Assembly: GCF_000383675.1 (NCBI RefSeq)
Contig: NZ_KB911824.1
Coordinates: 62,001-126,000, forward strand
Source: Terracoccus sp. 273MFTsu3.1
GTDB lineage: Bacteria; Actinomycetota; Actinomycetes; Actinomycetales; Dermatophilaceae
Direction of reading: 5' to 3'
Length of the DNA: 64,000 nucleotides
Of the stretch, positions 3,100-40,163 are shown piece by piece; position 1 is the stretch's first letter, and every line of letters begins with the position of its first letter. Below the pieces are notes generated by a model. That model did not search any database and was not told the DNA's origin. It was given only the letters and a program-made list of their open reading frames with translations. The position numbers and the translations under genes were made by a program.

Positions 3100-5463
3100 A
3101 TGCCCAAGCACACCTCCTCCGGCGCGCCCAAGAAGGCCCGCTGGTCCACCGAGAAGAAGGCCGCCGCGACCAAGAAGCCGCATCGCGGACAGGGCGGACA
3201 GAAGTCCTCCGGTTCCTTCTCCGGCCCCAAGACCTCCCGCCCGGCATCGTCGGGCTCCTCGCACGTCGGTGGCCGCGAGTGGCGCGCCCCGCGTGACGAG
3301 CACCGTTCCTCCGACCGCCGCGACGACCGTGGTGGCGACCGTGGTGGCTTCCAGCGCCGTGACGACCGCGGTGACCGCGGCTTCCAGCGTCGTGACGACC
3401 GCCCGAGCTTCGAGCGCCGCGACGACCGCGGTGGCGACCGTGGTGGCTTCCAGCGTCGTGACGACCGCCCGAGCTTCGAGCGCCGCGACGACCGCGGTGG
3501 CGACCGTGGTGGCTTCCAGCGTCGTGACGACCGCCCGAGCTTCGAGCGCCGCGACGACCGCGGTGGCGACCGTGGTGGCTTCCAGCGTCGTGACGACCGC
3601 CCGTCCTTCGAGCGCCGCGACGACCGCGGTGGCGACCGTGGTGGCTTCCAGCGTCGTGACGATCGCCCGTCCTTCGAGCGCCGCGACGACCGCGGTGGCT
3701 TCCAGCGTCGTGACGACCGTGGTGGCGACCGTCCTGCCTACCAGCGTCGTGAGGACCGTCCGTCCTTCGAGCGTCGCGACGACCGTGGTGACCGTGGCTT
3801 CCAGCGCCGTGAGGACCGTCCGTCGTTCGAGCGTCGTGACGACCGTGGTGACCGAGGTTTCCAGCGTCGTGACGACCGTGGTGACCGTGGCTTCCAGCGC
3901 CGCGAGGAGCGCCCCCGCTTCGAGCGTCGCGACGACCGTGGCGCGGACCGCTTCGCCGACCGTGCTCCCGTGAGCTTCGACGACGCCGAGGCCGAGCGCA
4001 TGGACGCCGACACCTGGACGAAGTCGACCCGTGCCGACGTGTCCGAGGGACCCGTCGACGTCGCCGCCGACAACGGCTTCGCCGCCCTCGGCCTGCCCGA
4101 GCGGCTCGTCGAGCGCCTCGCCCGCGAGGGCATCACCTCGCCGTTCCCGATCCAGACCGCGACGATCCCCGACGCGCTGCTCGGCAAGGACGTCCTCGGC
4201 CGCGGCCAGACCGGCTCGGGCAAGACCCTTGCCTTCGGCCTGCCGCTCATCGCCCGGCTCCTCGAGGCCGACCTCAAGCGTCGCCCGCGCAAGCCGCACG
4301 CCCTCATCCTGACGCCGACGCGCGAGCTCGCGATGCAGATCTCCGACGCGCTCGAGCCGCTCGTGCACGTCGCCGGCCTGCGCCACAAGCTCGTGGCCGG
4401 TGGCCTCAGCTACACGACGCAGATCAACGCCCTCAACAAGGGCGTCGACATCCTCATCGCGACGCCGGGCCGCCTCAACGACCTGCTCGAGCGCGGCGCG
4501 GTCGAGATGGATGACATCGCGATCACCGTGCTCGACGAGGCCGACCACATGGCCGAGATGGGCTTCATGGCCGAGATCACGACGAGCCTCGACAAGATCC
4601 CGTCCGACGGCCAGCGCCTCCTCTTCTCGGCGACGCTCGACCGTGGCATCGACGCGCTCGTCGAGAAGTACCTCACCGACCCGGTGACGCACTCCACGAA
4701 CGACGCGACCGCGTCGGTCGAGGGCATGGACCACCACGTCCTGCTCATCGACCCGCAGCACAAGAAGGTCATCACGGCCGAGGTCGCCAACCGCGAGGGC
4801 CGCACCGTCGTGTTCTGCCGCACCAAGCTCGGCGCCGACCGCATCGCGCTCCAGCTGCGCGAGCAGGGCGTCATGGCGGCCGCGCTCCACGGTGGCCTCA
4901 ACCAGGGCCAGCGCAACCGCGTGCTCGGCGCGTTCCGTGACGGCACCCTCCCGGTGCTCGTGGCGACCGACGTGGCAGCCCGCGGCATCCACGTCGACGA
5001 CGTCTCCGTCGTCCTGCAGGTCGACCCGCCGGCCGACCACAAGGACTACCTCCACCGATCGGGCCGCACGGCTCGCGCCGGTGACAAGGGCACCGTGGTG
5101 ACCCTGGCCTTGCCGCACCAGCGTCGGACGATGGAGCGCCAGCTCAAGGATGCCGGCCTCGAGATCTCGCCCGTGCGGGCCACGCCCGGCGACGCGATCA
5201 TCGCGGCGACCGGTGCGACGACCCCGAGTGGTGTCGCGATCGCCGAGGACGAGTTCCAGCGCCTCATCGCCGGTCCCAAGCAGCACCGTCGTGCGCCTGC
5301 CGGTCCGCGTGGTCCGCGCCAGGGCCAGCGCAGCGGCTCGCGTCCGCAGCACGGTGGCGGTCGTTCCGACGACCGCCGAGGCCGTCGCAACGACCGCGGC
5401 GACGGTCTCGTGTCCCGCTGGGGCGACGACGACCGCCGTGGTCAGCGGGGCGCGCGCTTCTGA
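3100..5463 (+). CDS. DEAD-box ATP-dependent RNA helicase with repeat-rich N-terminus
   Basis: This 787-residue RNA helicase of the DeaD/RhlE type probably unwinds structured mRNA or assists ribosome assembly. Residues 1-320 are a basic, disordered region of RDDRGG/GFQRR/PSFERR units. The core follows: a Q-motif helix near 325-345 (LVERLAREGITSPFPIQTA), Walker A GRGQTGSGKT near 367, PTRELA, TPGRL, DEAD near 479, SAT near 510, VFCRTK, ATDVAARGI and HRSGRTARAG near 652. The C-terminus is again Arg/Gly-rich. I chose the ATG at 3100 (MPKHTSSG); an in-frame ATG at 3046 lacks support. The RG-rich ends probably bind RNA without sequence preference. Confidence 0.93.
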   Translation: MPKHTSSGAPKKARWSTEKKAAATKKPHRGQGGQKSSGSFSGPKTSRPASSGSSHVGGREWRAPRDEHRSSDRRDDRGGDRGGFQRRDDRGDRGFQRRDDRPSFERRDDRGGDRGGFQRRDDRPSFERRDDRGGDRGGFQRRDDRPSFERRDDRGGDRGGFQRRDDRPSFERRDDRGGDRGGFQRRDDRPSFERRDDRGGFQRRDDRGGDRPAYQRREDRPSFERRDDRGDRGFQRREDRPSFERRDDRGDRGFQRRDDRGDRGFQRREERPRFERRDDRGADRFADRAPVSFDDAEAERMDADTWTKSTRADVSEGPVDVAADNGFAALGLPERLVERLAREGITSPFPIQTATIPDALLGKDVLGRGQTGSGKTLAFGLPLIARLLEADLKRRPRKPHALILTPTRELAMQISDALEPLVHVAGLRHKLVAGGLSYTTQINALNKGVDILIATPGRLNDLLERGAVEMDDIAITVLDEADHMAEMGFMAEITTSLDKIPSDGQRLLFSATLDRGIDALVEKYLTDPVTHSTNDATASVEGMDHHVLLIDPQHKKVITAEVANREGRTVVFCRTKLGADRIALQLREQGVMAAALHGGLNQGQRNRVLGAFRDGTLPVLVATDVAARGIHVDDVSVVLQVDPPADHKDYLHRSGRTARAGDKGTVVTLALPHQRRTMERQLKDAGLEISPVRATPGDAIIAATGATTPSGVAIAEDEFQRLIAGPKQHRRAPAGPRGPRQGQRSGSRPQHGGGRSDDRRGRRNDRGDGLVSRWGDDDRRGQRGARF
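3394..3711 (+). repeat. 66-bp tandem repeat inside the helicase gene
   Basis: Four almost identical 66-bp units begin at 3394, 3460, 3526 and 3592. A shortened 54-bp fifth unit begins at 3658. Each encodes a 22-residue block DDRPSFERRDDRGGDRGGFQ plus RR. The near-perfect DNA identity suggests recent expansion and possible copy-number variation. Looser copies continue to about 3950. Confidence 0.9.
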
Positions 5464-36812: not shown

Positions 36813-36839
36813 TGGGGTGAGTGACGGGACTTGAACCCG
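36813..36839. repeat. attL: 27-bp copy of the tRNA-His 3' end
   Basis: The sequence TGGGGTGAGTGACGGGAC followed by TTGAACCCG is identical to 40087-40113. On the minus strand it is the last 27 nt of tRNA-His, from the T arm to CCA. The rest of a tRNA is absent here, so this is the orphan copy made by site-specific integration. Confidence 0.9.
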
Positions 36840-36907
36840 ACCGATTCACGCTCCACGCTCAACCATCTGTGCGTCTCTCATGCGTGGACTGCTGTTGAGT
36901 TGGGTGT

Positions 36908-36930
36908 CGATGTTCCCTCAGGGAACATCG
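36908..36930. promoter_or_regulatory. Perfect palindrome at island left end (arm-type site)
   Basis: CGATGTTCCCT-C-AGGGAACATCG is a 23-bp perfect palindrome containing two inverted GGGAACA words. It overlaps the stop codon of the excisionase-like gene. It may bind integrase or Xis, and could also act as a terminator. Confidence 0.6.
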
Positions 36931-37157
36931 TCGACTGGCCGTCGTCGGGCCCGGATGGGTACGGGGAGGGCGTCAATCGTCGTCTCCGGATCGACGCGCG
37001 ATTCCTGCAGGATCGCCAACAAGTCCGCCTCCGAGAATCGGATGTCACGCCCGAACACGTGGTGGGGAATCCGTCGCTGACGACACATGCGCCAGACCGT
37101 CGCTCGGGTCAGGCCCAACACTTCCGCGACCTCCGCGACGGTCATGAGCGGTTTCAT
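36918..37157 (-). CDS. Excisionase-like helix-turn-helix protein
   Basis: This is a 79-residue DNA-binding protein of the MerR-like excisionase (HTH_17) family. The motif MTVAEVAEVLGLTRATVWRM is followed by RRIPHHVFGRDIRFSEADLL, the usual layout. The C-terminal 20 residues are Pro/Arg-rich. Being 78 bp from attL, it is well placed to act as the recombination directionality factor. It may instead repress the divergent XRE gene. The ATG at 37157 gives MKPLMTVAEV. Confidence 0.82.
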   Translation of the reverse strand: MKPLMTVAEVAEVLGLTRATVWRMCRQRRIPHHVFGRDIRFSEADLLAILQESRVDPETTIDALPVPIRARRRPVDDVP

Positions 37158-37333
37158 CGCGCCCCCTGCCCTCTCGTCGATCCGTCAACGTTGCCTGCGT
37201 CGCCTGGACCAAGAGTGAGCCAAATAGTCGGCAAAAACAAGCCAATCGGGAAGGCGCGCCCCTGCTATCGGGACGCACGCTAGCCACCCCCGCTACGGTC
37301 CACGTGCTCACCACGAAATGACAGGACGGCTGC
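37158..37333. promoter_or_regulatory. Divergent promoter region of the island
   Basis: These 176 bp separate the excisionase-like and XRE genes. An AT-rich run with three GCC/GGC-A words (GAGCCAAATAG, TCGGCAAAAA, CAAGCCAATC) at about 37214-37248 is a plausible promoter and operator cluster. Exact boxes cannot be placed. Confidence 0.4.
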
Positions 37334-37669
37334 ATGACCGGCTCACCTCAGGCTCTCGCAGACGCCGTGCGAAGCCGGCGAGCCTCGATGGGGTGGACCC
37401 AGTCGGACGTGGCCGAGCGCGGGGGGCCGTCCGACACCACGTTGTCCAAAATCGAATCGGCCAGCCCATCGAGTCTGGCGGAACGCACCCTCCGCCGATT
37501 GGATACAGGGTTGGGCTGGAGTCCGGGTACAGCCCGTCAGATCTACCTAGAGCGGGGCAGCCGCGTAGAGGGTGACGCTCCTGCCAGTGGTAAGGGGCCC
37601 CTTCTCGCGGAAGCGACGAACCAACAGCTTCTGGCCGAACTCGCAGGGCGACTAGGGACCAGTCGCTAG
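37334..37669 (+). CDS. XRE family transcriptional regulator
   Basis: This is a 111-residue protein with an N-terminal XRE helix-turn-helix (residues 5-55: LADAVRSRRASMGWTQSDVA, then TTLSKIESASP). After it come about 55 residues including RQIYLERGSRVEG and a helical C-terminus (EATNQQLLAELAGRLG). The ATG at 37334 has AGGA upstream. It is divergent from the excisionase-like gene and probably the island's regulator. Confidence 0.82.
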   Translation: MTGSPQALADAVRSRRASMGWTQSDVAERGGPSDTTLSKIESASPSSLAERTLRRLDTGLGWSPGTARQIYLERGSRVEGDAPASGKGPLLAEATNQQLLAELAGRLGTSR

Positions 37670-37710
37670 GGTCCCCAACACTCGCCGCTGATGGCCGGTG
37701 TGGGTACATC

Positions 37711-38127
37711 ATGGGGAGCATGACCATCCCCAACCCACGTGACTATGGGCTCCCAGACGACGCGGTCGTGGTCAACATCAACGGTGTAGTGCGGGACCTG
37801 CGCACAGTCCCCACTGAGGAAGGTGGCGACTGGGTGCCACCAACGCCCAAGGAACTTGGGCAAGTGGACGCGCTCGACGGGACCCCGCCAGCGCCAGGCA
37901 CGGGCACGGTCTGGATCACGCCAGTAGAGGGTTACTGGTTCGCCAGCTGGGCGCATGCGGATGAGGGTTCCCCCGTGGTCCGACATCTGGAGGGTCCCGA
38001 AGGCATGACCCATGACGAGGCGATCCAGTGGTCGCTGGCCCAGCCCGCAGCGCGTCGCATGATCTACGACGAGGGCCAGGGCGACTTCCTCGAGGTGCAG
38101 GCCGGTGACGCTAAGCCGCACTTATAG
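37711..38127 (+). CDS. Island protein of unknown function
   Basis: This is a 138-residue acidic protein (MGSMTIPNPRDYGLPDDAVV at the start; VWITPVEGYWFASWAHADEG in the middle; GMTHDEAIQWSLAQPAARRM near the end). No family is recognised. The ATG at 37720 is an alternative start. It follows the XRE gene by 41 bp. Its last 17 bp overlap the convergent ImmA gene. Confidence 0.65.
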   Translation: MGSMTIPNPRDYGLPDDAVVVNINGVVRDLRTVPTEEGGDWVPPTPKELGQVDALDGTPPAPGTGTVWITPVEGYWFASWAHADEGSPVVRHLEGPEGMTHDEAIQWSLAQPAARRMIYDEGQGDFLEVQAGDAKPHL

Positions 38128-39145
38128 GCACAAGATGACGGACGTACTCTCGAATCTCGCCTGGATGGATATCCAGTGCAGTTGCCGCATCCTTCGCGCT
38201 CACCCGTGACTGCGAGCCATACATCACCTTGCGCAGTAGCTGCGAAGTCTCGGGCATGATCCCGTCCGGCTCTGATCTCCTATACCCGCGGTCTGACAGC
38301 GTGATGCAAGTCGACCTGTACTGCCAATCACTTAGCAGCTGCAGTTCGCGCAGGCGGTGCGTCATAGCCATGGCTGAGGTCCGCCAATAGGACCGGGCGG
38401 CAAGGATGCGATCGATGCCGGCACCATTCATGGACTGAGCGAGCACGGCACTTCGGGGCATCAGAAAGTTTGCAGCGAAGGCGTTGGCTTCTGCCTCACG
38501 TGACTTTGAGGTGGCCGGGACCATCTCTAGGTGACCGTGCAGGACAAGGTGGCCCAGTTCATGAGCAGCATCGAACCGTTGGCGCTCACCGGACTTCGAC
38601 GTATTGAGAAACACATATGGGACACCGTCCTGGATGAAGCAGAAGGCGTCGATATCGCTGTATTCGTGGTTCAGCGAGGCCAAGCGGACACCCTTGGACT
38701 CCAAAAGGTGGACCATGCTGGAGATCGGACGATCGCCCAGGTTCCATTGGCGCCGCACCAAGTCGGCGGCCTGCTCTGGGGAAAGCTTGTCGAAAGAAGG
38801 GATGCTTGGATCGGGTAGTCGAAAACGGTTCTCAATCGTCTTGAAGAACTCTATCGTGAGCGCCGCTGTCGCAAGCACAGCCCCACGTCGAGTTGCCGTG
38901 GCCTTGCTCAACTTGCGGAAGCTCGCGGCTTCCACGGGGACGGGGTCAATCGCCTCCCGCTCGAAAAAGTGAGGCGCTACGAACAGTGCGCCAGCGAGGC
39001 GGGTCAGGTTCTCCTCGCTCGGCTCCCGTTTGCCGTTTTCGTACTCGGTGAGCGAGCGCAACGACACGCCGCTGGTCTCGGCAAGTTTGGTGATGGTAAG
39101 GCCCAGCCGCAGGCGGGCCAGTCTGAGTCGAGACGGGTTGAACAT
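38111..39145 (-). CDS. XRE-HTH fused to ImmA/IrrE zinc metallopeptidase
   Basis: This is a 344-residue two-domain protein. The N-terminal HTH (residues 6-60: RLRLGLTITKLAETSGVSLR) is joined to a COG2856/ImmA-IrrE peptidase with the zinc motif RFDAAHELGHLVLHG (HExxH form) and a downstream Glu in SREAEANAFAANFLMP. Such proteins cleave repressors (ImmA of ICEBs1, IrrE of Deinococcus) or act as the antitoxin side of defence cassettes. The frame is intact with all catalytic residues. It begins 18 bp after the 217-residue partner, with which it forms an operon. Confidence 0.88.
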   Translation of the reverse strand: MFNPSRLRLARLRLGLTITKLAETSGVSLRSLTEYENGKREPSEENLTRLAGALFVAPHFFEREAIDPVPVEAASFRKLSKATATRRGAVLATAALTIEFFKTIENRFRLPDPSIPSFDKLSPEQAADLVRRQWNLGDRPISSMVHLLESKGVRLASLNHEYSDIDAFCFIQDGVPYVFLNTSKSGERQRFDAAHELGHLVLHGHLEMVPATSKSREAEANAFAANFLMPRSAVLAQSMNGAGIDRILAARSYWRTSAMAMTHRLRELQLLSDWQYRSTCITLSDRGYRRSEPDGIMPETSQLLRKVMYGSQSRVSAKDAATALDIHPGEIREYVRHLVPISAA

Positions 39146-39163
39146 GTGGAGGCTCAGCTGCTT

Positions 39164-39817
39164 TCAGCGTGGTTCGACCTGGACTTCGAAAGCGTCGTCG
39201 CCGTCGGGATTATCGAACACTGAAAGATCTCCATCGAGATCCAAGTGCTCGACCGCGATGCGGTCCGCCCATTCGGTGACGCTTCCACCCCAGGTCATTT
39301 GAGCAGGCCTTGAGAACTCAAGGAGCAGCCCGTTGCCATGGTGAATACGCTCGCAGAGAAGGAAGTAGAGGGGTGCGTCCGAGGCCGCGCCCGACATCTG
39401 CCCTTCATGCGCGGCGTCGTTGAAGTCGAACAGCGAGGCCGGGCGGGGCGGGGTTGCGAGCGCCTTTCGGGTCGCCAGTCCTTTGCGCTTCGTGCGCGGC
39501 ATGCGCATCGTGGACTTTCCCACGTTGACTCCAGAGGAGATGGCGAAGGCGACAAGTCCCTGGGGGTGAAGGAGTCGCGGCTGCTGATCAACTGACCTCA
39601 GGCGCCAACCGTCGGCATGGAGAAGCTGAGCGAACTGCTCCATGCCGTCGTGGTAGATGTCGGTTCCCGCTGAAGACCGCAGGGCAAGCGCGCTGCGGTT
39701 CGCTGCGCGCGACGCCCCTGCGCGCAATCCTGCGTGGAGAAGCTCGCTCGACAAGCCGAAGGCCTTCAAGCGGCCCTCGTCGTTGGCTCCCTGCGGTGAA
39801 GCATTGGCGGCAGTCAT
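39164..39817 (-). CDS. Partner protein of the HTH-ImmA/IrrE gene, unknown
   Basis: This is a 217-residue protein with no recognised domain. Visible blocks are GLSSELLHAGLRAGASRAAN at the N-terminus, GTDIYHDGMEQFAQLLHADG, VAFAISSGVNVG, a basic stretch MPRTKRKGLATRKALAT, and APLYFLLCERIHHGNGLLLE. I chose the second ATG of ATGATG at 39817 because GGAGGGG is then six bases away; the first, at 39820, is too close to it. It is the first gene of the cassette. A toxin or sensor role is inference from the pairing with ImmA/IrrE. Confidence 0.7.
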   Translation of the reverse strand: MTAANASPQGANDEGRLKAFGLSSELLHAGLRAGASRAANRSALALRSSAGTDIYHDGMEQFAQLLHADGWRLRSVDQQPRLLHPQGLVAFAISSGVNVGKSTMRMPRTKRKGLATRKALATPPRPASLFDFNDAAHEGQMSGAASDAPLYFLLCERIHHGNGLLLEFSRPAQMTWGGSVTEWADRIAVEHLDLDGDLSVFDNPDGDDAFEVQVEPR

Positions 39818-39839
39818 CATTCCCCTCCCGGTTGTTGCT

Positions 39840-39872
39840 CGAAACGCTACCACGTTTGTGGTCGCGAAACGC
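39840..39872. promoter_or_regulatory. Candidate operator of the ImmA/IrrE cassette
   Basis: Two direct CGAAACGC words (39840-39847 and 39865-39872) flank an inverted repeat ACCAC-GTTT-GTGGT (39849-39862). They lie 23 bp before the start of the cassette, where an XRE protein would be expected to bind its own promoter. Confidence 0.5.
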
Positions 39873-39939
39873 GCAACCGCGGCGTGTCGCGGCGGCTGGT
39901 CCGTCTGGGGGTGGATCGCATGGCCGTCAGCGCAGCAGA

Positions 39940-39957
39940 GCCGTTGAAGAAAACGGC
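39940..39957. terminator. Weak hairpin in the island
   Basis: GCCGTT-GAAGAA-AACGGC forms a 6-bp stem in the otherwise geneless 39818-40086 stretch. Its role is uncertain. Confidence 0.3.
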
Positions 39958-39981
39958 AAGCGAGCGGGCTTCTGTCCATCC

Positions 39982-39996
39982 GAGTGACGGGACTTG
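39982..39996. repeat. Third, partial copy of the att core
   Basis: GAGTGACGGGACTTG repeats 15 bp of the 27-bp core and is followed by GTCCCG rather than AACCCG. It lies 91 bp inside attR. It may be a scar of an earlier insertion. Confidence 0.7.
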
Positions 39997-40006
39997 GTCC
40001 CGTACG

Positions 40007-40038
40007 CCCAAGGTGTCCGTGGGAACACCTTGGGAACA
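40007..40038. promoter_or_regulatory. Right-end inverted repeat with two GGGAACA words
   Basis: CCCAAGGTGT (40007-40016) pairs with ACACCTTGGG (40025-40034). GGGAACA occurs at 40021-40027 and 40032-40038 as direct repeats. The same word occurs twice near attL, so these are candidate arm-type sites for the recombinase. Confidence 0.55.
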
Positions 40039-40040
40039 TC

Positions 40041-40081
40041 AAAAAACGCCTCTGACCCGCGTTTCCGCAGGTCAGAGGCGT
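40041..40081 (-). terminator. Rho-independent terminator of tRNA-His
   Basis: ACGCCTCTGACC (40046-40057) pairs with GGTCAGAGGCGT (40070-40081). On the minus strand the stem is followed by TTTTTT. It is one of the few terminators here with a U-tract, and it lies inside the island's right end. Confidence 0.85.
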
Positions 40082-40086
40082 TCTCA

Positions 40087-40113
40087 TGGGGTGAGTGACG
40101 GGACTTGAACCCG
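40087..40113. repeat. attR: 27-bp core within tRNA-His
   Basis: This is identical to 36813-36839. It restores the 3' end of tRNA-His, so the tRNA stays functional after insertion. Confidence 0.9.
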
Positions 40114-40163
40114 CGGCCACCTGGACCACAACCAGGTGCTCTACCAGCTGAGCTACACCCACC
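40087..40163 (-). tRNA. tRNA-His (anticodon GTG)
   Basis: On the minus strand: acceptor GTGGGTG/CACTCAC with G at -1 (40163) and discriminator C, D arm AGCTCAGCTGGTAGAGC, anticodon arm CCTGG-TTGTGGT-CCAGG with GTG, T arm CGGGTTCAAGTCCCG, and encoded CCA ending at 40087. The last 27 nt are the attachment core and were supplied by the inserted island. Confidence 0.95.

Follow-up and report, generated by a model that had tools for sequence, protein, structure and literature searches.

The 64,000-nucleotide stretch of DNA analysed here, which we refer to as the window, is part of contig C5 in the 4.94-Mb genome of Terracoccus sp. 273MFTsu3.1 (NZ_KB911824.1, positions 62,001 to 126,000) and contains a 3.3-kb island at the gene for tRNA-His. 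The island is an element that has integrated at tRNA-His and has no integrase, and among its five genes is a pair that looks like the RosmerTA defence system.

The tRNA-His locus and its insert

ARAGORN places the tRNA-His (gtg) gene at 40087-40162 on the minus strand, and its 3' end is supplied by the island's own copy of a 27-bp attachment core. This core, TGGGGTGAGTGACGGGACTTGAACCCG, occurs twice in the window, at 36813-36839 and 40087-40113, and the two copies are 100% identical. It comprises the last 27 bp of the tRNA-His gene, and the match stops exactly there, being extendable on neither side. The copy at 36813..36839 (plus strand) is an orphan tRNA-His 3' end that forms the chromosome-side attachment site, and it is the copy that is single in the empty site of two relatives. 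Between the two cores lie 3,247 bp of inserted DNA (36840..40086, no strand assigned; 3,274 bp with one core copy). The GC content of the island is 0.627, against a mean of 0.715 (standard deviation 0.012, minimum 0.683) in 271 overlapping segments of the same length outside it. A preliminary description of this DNA, made from its letters alone, had reported an exact 27-bp direct repeat of the tRNA-His 3' end around a compositionally different 3.3-kb segment, and both the identity of the repeat and the GC contrast bear this out.

Using the tRNA-His gene and the adjoining start of the region as query, matches were obtained in 56 of 58 genomes (own genome included), and 29 relative loci (L003-L031) were compared in detail. 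In two genomes of the same genus, G008 and G007, the left flank continues directly into an intact tRNA-His with 94-95% identity over about 1.4 kb, and a single 27-bp copy is placed exactly at the two island junctions. Three other genomes of the genus (G003, G004 and G005) share only the last 86-98 bp of the left flank beside the core, at 74-83% identity, and the remaining compared loci have the core or the tRNA alone, or another arrangement. The empty sites in G008 and G007, each with its single 27-bp copy, show that the island entered by site-specific insertion. Aligning relatives that lack the insert was one of the checks that had been proposed, and it gave the empty site; in these comparisons, and in a search of 186 family genomes for the exact orphan-repeat pattern, we encountered neither relatives with the same genes but no repeat nor an orphan repeat conserved without an insert.

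All five island genes are open frames. The first, at 36918..37157 on the minus strand, encodes a 79-residue Xis-like excisionase/HTH_17 protein (PF12728 1.4e-15; TIGR01764 4.6e-12, over its cut-off; phrog_66 6.1e-11, a family labelled "excisionase and transcriptional regulator"). It also has a weaker match to the helix-turn-helix (HTH) protein MAD1 of a defence system (PADLOC 9.4e-10; NCBIfam below cut-off) and no match in the phage collection. Divergent from xis lies the gene for an XRE-type HTH protein of 111 residues (37334..37669, plus strand; HTH_31 9.1e-08, HTH_3 1.6e-07), and beyond it, at 37711..38127 on the plus strand, that for a protein of 138 residues with nothing at or below 1e-3 in four libraries. 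The preliminary description had listed an Xis-like protein, an XRE protein and an unknown among the five genes; the profile matches support the first two, and the third is without a family. Remote relatives of the 138-residue protein were found in 4 of 395 other genomes of the order, with a second in the own genome and one in G001 (L046), and its predicted structure was too poor for use (pLDDT 40).

The other two genes are on the minus strand. RmrA (38111..39145) combines an HTH domain with an M78 (ImmA/IrrE) peptidase domain (HTH_3 1.3e-14; PF06114 9.1e-21), contains the motif HELGH in its translation, and matches the RosmerTA antitoxin model of PADLOC (PDLC03949, 4.7e-129). RmrT (39164..39820), a protein of 218 residues if the start chosen at 39820 is used (the listed frame extends to 40198), matches the RosmerTA toxin model (PDLC03935, 8.1e-35). 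The rmrT and rmrA frames lie 18 bp apart on the same strand, in an operon-like arrangement. The pair has the features of RosmerTA, namely an antitoxin with HTH and M78/ImmA domains and an adjoining RmrT toxin gene, so that what had been described as "HTH-ImmA/IrrE plus partner" looks like a RosmerTA-type toxin-antitoxin system, a type reportedly first described by Millman et al. 2022, and probably makes up the main cargo of the island.

Relatives of RmrT and RmrA are adjacent in G075, G085 and G026, where the identity of RmrT is 52-61%. RmrT relatives occur in 9 of 186 genomes of the family (own genome included), in 0 of the 8 other same-genus genomes and in 8 plasmid records, and were not found in IMG/VR, in the phage collection or in one single-protein scan of genome_contigs. 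The hydrophobic segments of RmrT are too short to form a membrane helix (best mean over 19 residues 1.07), and its predicted structure was too poor for a fold search (pLDDT 39).

Besides the RosmerTA pair, the present analysis adds repeats at both island ends and a third, partial core to what had been described. An inverted repeat with perfect 11-bp arms, CGATGTTCCCT-c-AGGGAACATCG (36908..36930, strandless), overlaps the end of xis and is a candidate arm site for an integrase or for Xis; a tandem 11-bp repeat, CCGTGGGAACA/CCTTGGGAACA (40017..40038, plus strand), is a candidate pair of integrase arm sites. The heptamer GGGAACA is contained in the repeats of both ends, and 4 of its 8 copies in the window (both strands) are at these repeats. 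The pattern GGGAACANNNTGGGAACA was found in 3 of 396 genomes of the order.

The third core, GAGTGACGGGACTTGGTCCCG (39982..40002, plus strand), matches the attachment core at 19 of 21 positions and lies 111 bp inside the tRNA end, with 84 bp between it and the tRNA. At up to 3 mismatches, 0.01 matches would be expected per 64 kb, and 100 Markov-resampled islands reached at most 16/21. The simplest reading is that this sequence is an old, decayed attachment site, as might be left by tandem integration followed by deletion. In a metagenome-assembled contig with an orphan tRNA-His end (L109, near 1197), a further partial core (19/27) lies at a distance of 125 bp, possibly another trace of repeated integration.

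Just downstream of tRNA-His, at 40045..40082 on the minus strand, the island has brought a strong terminator-like hairpin with a T-run (17-nt arms, 94% complementary). Folded together with the tRNA it gives a z of -4.65, and a scan with a consensus terminator reported none at 40045-40082. Hairpins of the CTCTGACCTGCGGAAACGCAGGTCAGAG type, matched 27 times in relatives, follow immediately after tRNA ends (Pro, Asn, Tyr, Val; within about 16 bases) at 15 of the 18 loci inspected (L037-L061), and may represent a terminator common to tRNA genes and to the element ends that copy them. Elsewhere in the window, positions 3322-3860 hold a direct-repeat array with a 66-bp period.

Absence of an integrase and phages that share the site

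The preliminary description had noted no recombinase frame on either strand, and every search we made agrees. Six-frame searches of the whole genome gave 5 matches to PF00589, none of them in the island, and 1 match to PF00239, outside it. A profile built from five integrases of tRNA-His phages found nothing among the 90 island frames of at least 20 residues (best E 8.1), and under the same profile control integrases score 1.7e-10 to 3.8e-195. Eight translated pieces of the island ends gave no Pfam family at E 1.

A resident helper was also sought. The own genome has no integrase of the tRNA-His phage type at 1e-25 among the 10 of 33 candidates scored, and none of the five PF00589 matches was found at tRNA-His. 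The match on C4 falls at the end of a long frame and reads like a XerC/XerD-type recombinase, and those on C2 and at C3:531920 have Xer-like lengths (judged by reading and length); the match at C10:333 is in a short frame at a contig start. The fifth, at C3:523667, belongs to an int-xis element at tRNA-Ser (G000:C3:523600-525050, L069) that has other repeats near its int end. About 17 kb beyond this element, at C3:541171, lies a relative of the island's 138-residue protein.

In IMG/VR, seven stretches have the core (27/27 in 5, 25/27 in 2) followed by a base foreign to the tRNA, and for this reason resemble tRNA-His attachment sites. Of the 7 loci, 5 (L100 included) have an integrase related to the L100 enzyme; R, K, H-x-x-R, H and Y, which we take to be the catalytic set, are among the invariant columns of these L100-type integrases. 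In all 5 the integrase lies on that side of the core which, after insertion, adjoins the restored tRNA, the side on which the island holds rmrT and the third core. In L100 some 110 bp separate the integrase start codon from the core, and in L097 and L101 the frame begins about 0.5 kb away. This placement fits the loss or replacement of an integrase at the tRNA end of the island.

The alignment of the five phage integrases matches 132 of 186 family genomes at 1e-25. We inspected 30 such loci, and in 26 of them the 3.6-4.3 kb examined include a tRNA; none has the tRNA-His core (best 20/27), and at one of the 30, L148, there is also a call of tRNA-His(atg) that is doubtful. In G001 an integrase lies near tRNA-His but, judged from its sequence, belongs to the neighbouring tRNA-Lys: at G001:C13 (L104:14016-15707) an int accompanied by an Xis-like gene ends beside tRNA-Lys, which adjoins tRNA-His. 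The DNA between tRNA-Lys and tRNA-His differs among the four same-genus regions compared. A further observation concerns the motif GACCTGC or GCAGGTC, which lies downstream of the core at +40 or +62/63 in 6 of the 7 phage contigs (L095-L101), and at 59 and at 32/57 from the core in the genome contigs L109 and L110; integrases of that clade may bind there.

How the island may have arisen

We favour, at a probability of roughly 0.6, the reading that this is an island resembling a cis-mobilizable element (CIME), which is stranded without an integrase and has been kept at tRNA-His because of the defence genes it carries. Recombination between a small circular element and the T-arm and 3' end of tRNA-His would have been the work of a tyrosine integrase that is no longer present; that it was of the tyrosine class is suggested by the site and by the phages that share it. 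The recombination would have restored the tRNA and left the old 3' end behind as the orphan repeat. The integrase may since have been lost, or the island may have arrived beside an integrase-bearing neighbour that was later deleted. With both cores, the candidate arm sites and the Xis-like gene retained, the result would in effect be an island of the cis-mobilizable type, and on its own it should be fixed in place, because Xis only directs an integrase. It would persist through phage defence by RosmerTA, possibly aided by toxin-antitoxin addiction. From what is described for the family, RmrA would hold RmrT in check and release it on sensing a phage, whereupon the infected cell would halt.

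Several observations weigh against this account. Neither a pseudogene nor integrase debris is present in the island, the two cores still agree at 27/27 positions, and the candidate arm sites are neat; an island so free of debris and with cores so intact does not decide between loss of an integrase and its absence from the beginning. The island also has no conjugation gene that would show descent from an integrative and conjugative element (ICE) or an integrative and mobilizable element (IME). The match to the phages is incomplete as well: the left end of the island is without the GACCTGC or GCAGGTC motif, GGGAACA-type repeats occur within 220 bp of the core only in L100 among the seven phage contigs, the L100 pair has the opposite orientation to that of the island, and searches of IMG/VR with two arm patterns gave nothing. 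These mismatches in heptamer, arm pattern and left end mean that the lost enzyme may have come from outside the L100 clade.

Alternatively, the island could be a helper-dependent satellite that never encodes an integrase but borrows one from incoming tRNA-His phages or ICEs, with its own Xis biasing the reaction towards excision. In its favour, the cores and the Xis-like gene are intact, each end has paired candidate arm sites, and the island holds no integrase debris. Phages with the same core exist, and in L100 TGTTCCC pairs with the same 11-bp spacing lie on the corresponding side, with a similar palindrome on the other; a TGTTCCC pair of this spacing is also found beside tRNA-Pro in L113 (G355). 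Against it, the proposed search for copies with the same ends elsewhere returned none. The orphan core occurs in 1 of 186 family genomes, the own genome, by a search for an exact 24-mer followed by any base but C, which cores that differ or extend further into the tRNA would escape. Three stretches of genome_contigs, a collection from which the own genome is possibly omitted, have an orphan core, and none of them has GGGAACA repeats within the 8 kb examined; one of the three, between elongation-factor genes, looks like a hairpin. When the island DNA was compared with 98 genomes (own included, at most three candidates scored per genome), matches longer than 1 kb were seen in three others, all inside RmrTA; nothing beyond RmrTA or short matches came from the 97 relatives. 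Another 38 matches were short, and 27 of these fall on the hairpin beside the tRNA. There is no other copy of the island in the own genome, where the GGGAACANNNTGGGAACA pair is likewise found only within the island, and no DNA match in 50,697 phage records; the arm patterns are, as noted, absent from IMG/VR. A literature search for satellites that use the integrase of a helper phage found none. We consider the satellite unlikely. Of the two alternatives in the preliminary description, the decayed element kept for its cargo fits better, because the exact pattern gave no sibling ends among the 186 genomes, no resident integrase of the tRNA-His phage type was found among the candidates scored, and there is a decayed extra core; the satellite with a helper integrase is less favoured, though not without merit, because cores, candidate arm sites and Xis-like gene are all intact.

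Somewhat more doubtful still is the idea that the island is a remnant of tandem accretion, in which a RosmerTA island once adjoined an integrase-bearing element, the third core being the middle attachment site and the 84 bp next to it the remains of the neighbour. The third core is far above chance, sits between the cargo and the tRNA-side arm repeats, and is absent from the seven phage loci, where no second core copy like the island's is seen (second-best match 15-18 of 27); accretion is moreover described for CIMEs in the available text of PMC5704250. On the other side, it is seen in a single genome, no intermediate was seen, and the third copy may be a secondary site of some other origin.

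A more elaborate proposal, which we regard as improbable, makes the island a minimal defence satellite in which RmrA, on sensing a phage, would both free the toxin and relieve repression of xis by the XRE protein, excision following when a tRNA-His phage supplies the integrase. The XRE gene divergent from xis and the ImmA-type protease within the same island suggest such a shared switch. Between xis and the XRE gene, however, the DNA has no direct repeat, one weak inverted repeat and no clear operator repeats, and a scan for sigma-70-type promoters gave no match in the island, this gap included. Finally, that these are ordinary chromosomal defence genes beside a tRNA-end copy made by chance or gene conversion, with no insertion, is refuted by the precise empty sites in two relatives and the GC contrast, and nothing was found in its favour.

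Returning to the preferred reading of a stranded, CIME-like island, the locus provides a compact case of a defence system on an island that has its sites and, seemingly, its directionality factor, but no enzyme. If the integrases of tRNA-His phages can act as helpers, defence genes would spread on the very phages that they resist; if they cannot, the island shows how defence cargo becomes fixed in a chromosome. Were the shared switch real, defence and mobility would share one sensor.

Comparison with known systems

Phage-inducible chromosomal islands (PICIs) carry their own integrase and genes for phage interference or packaging, and none of these features is found among the five island genes. 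An element of the kind that uses a tyrosine integrase to target tRNA genes inserts at the 3' end, restores the tRNA and carries the integrase gene; the island shows the tRNA-restoring insertion at the 3' end and has no integrase gene.

The likeness to CIMEs is closer. In the available text of PMC5704250 a CIME is an island that keeps its left and right attachment sites (attL and attR) and is without integration and transfer genes. The present island has attL and attR, as seen from the 27/27 repeat and the empty sites, no integrase signal, no transfer family among its five genes, and a tRNA 3' end as its target, and the decayed extra core hints at tandem integration. It differs from that description in keeping an Xis-like gene and in bearing no trace of ICE or IME ancestry, and it is CIME-like on sequence features alone. 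Formal CIME status needs descent from an ICE or IME, and a CIME moves with a neighbour; the third, decayed core is the one possible pointer to either here.

Other islands are without a recombinase of their own. As far as the accessible text of PMC3146451 goes, Dehalococcoides has 15 ssrA islands without integration modules that are possible cis-mobilizable elements; they are likewise site-specific, but their target is ssrA and the system is that of a serine recombinase. Excision of an island that has no recombinase gene itself is described for microcin H47 in E. coli; this island is similarly small and flanked by direct repeats, according to the available parts of PMC3191183 and PMC5426353. 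Its repeats are extensive and imperfect, it measures 13 kb and its excision was observed, whereas in our island the repeat is short, perfect and derived from the tRNA, and an Xis-like gene is present. Clusters of attC sites lacking integron-integrases (CALINs) and miniature inverted-repeat transposable elements (MITEs), as covered in the portion of PMC11389934 at hand, also keep their ends, are missing their enzyme and rely on the recombinase or transposase of another element, but their enzymes and ends (integron attC sites, inverted repeats) are different.

For the regulatory genes the comparison is with ICEBs1, where the xis promoter is freed of its repressor by the protease ImmA (PMC8032392, accessible text). 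The XRE gene divergent from xis and the ImmA-type protease in the same element recall this ImmR/ImmA system, whereas the protease of the island forms one protein with an HTH of its own and has a toxin as its partner, the island has no integrase or conjugation genes, and control of xis is a prediction. For the cargo it is with the RosmerTA system that Gordonia phage Kita carries. This system is a toxin-antitoxin pair, gives protection from some coliphages, and has an RmrA described as a protease-bearing antitoxin (available text of PMC10440598). The island shares with it the HTH-ImmA protease antitoxin beside a small toxin gene, the toxin being first, and matches the PADLOC models. The Kita toxin, by contrast, is described there as having predicted membrane segments and depolarising membranes, and the RmrT of the island is without a long hydrophobic stretch. 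Taken together, the island appears to belong to a known kind, the CIME-like islands, and what seems to distinguish it is the combination of a defence pair as cargo with a retained Xis-like gene.

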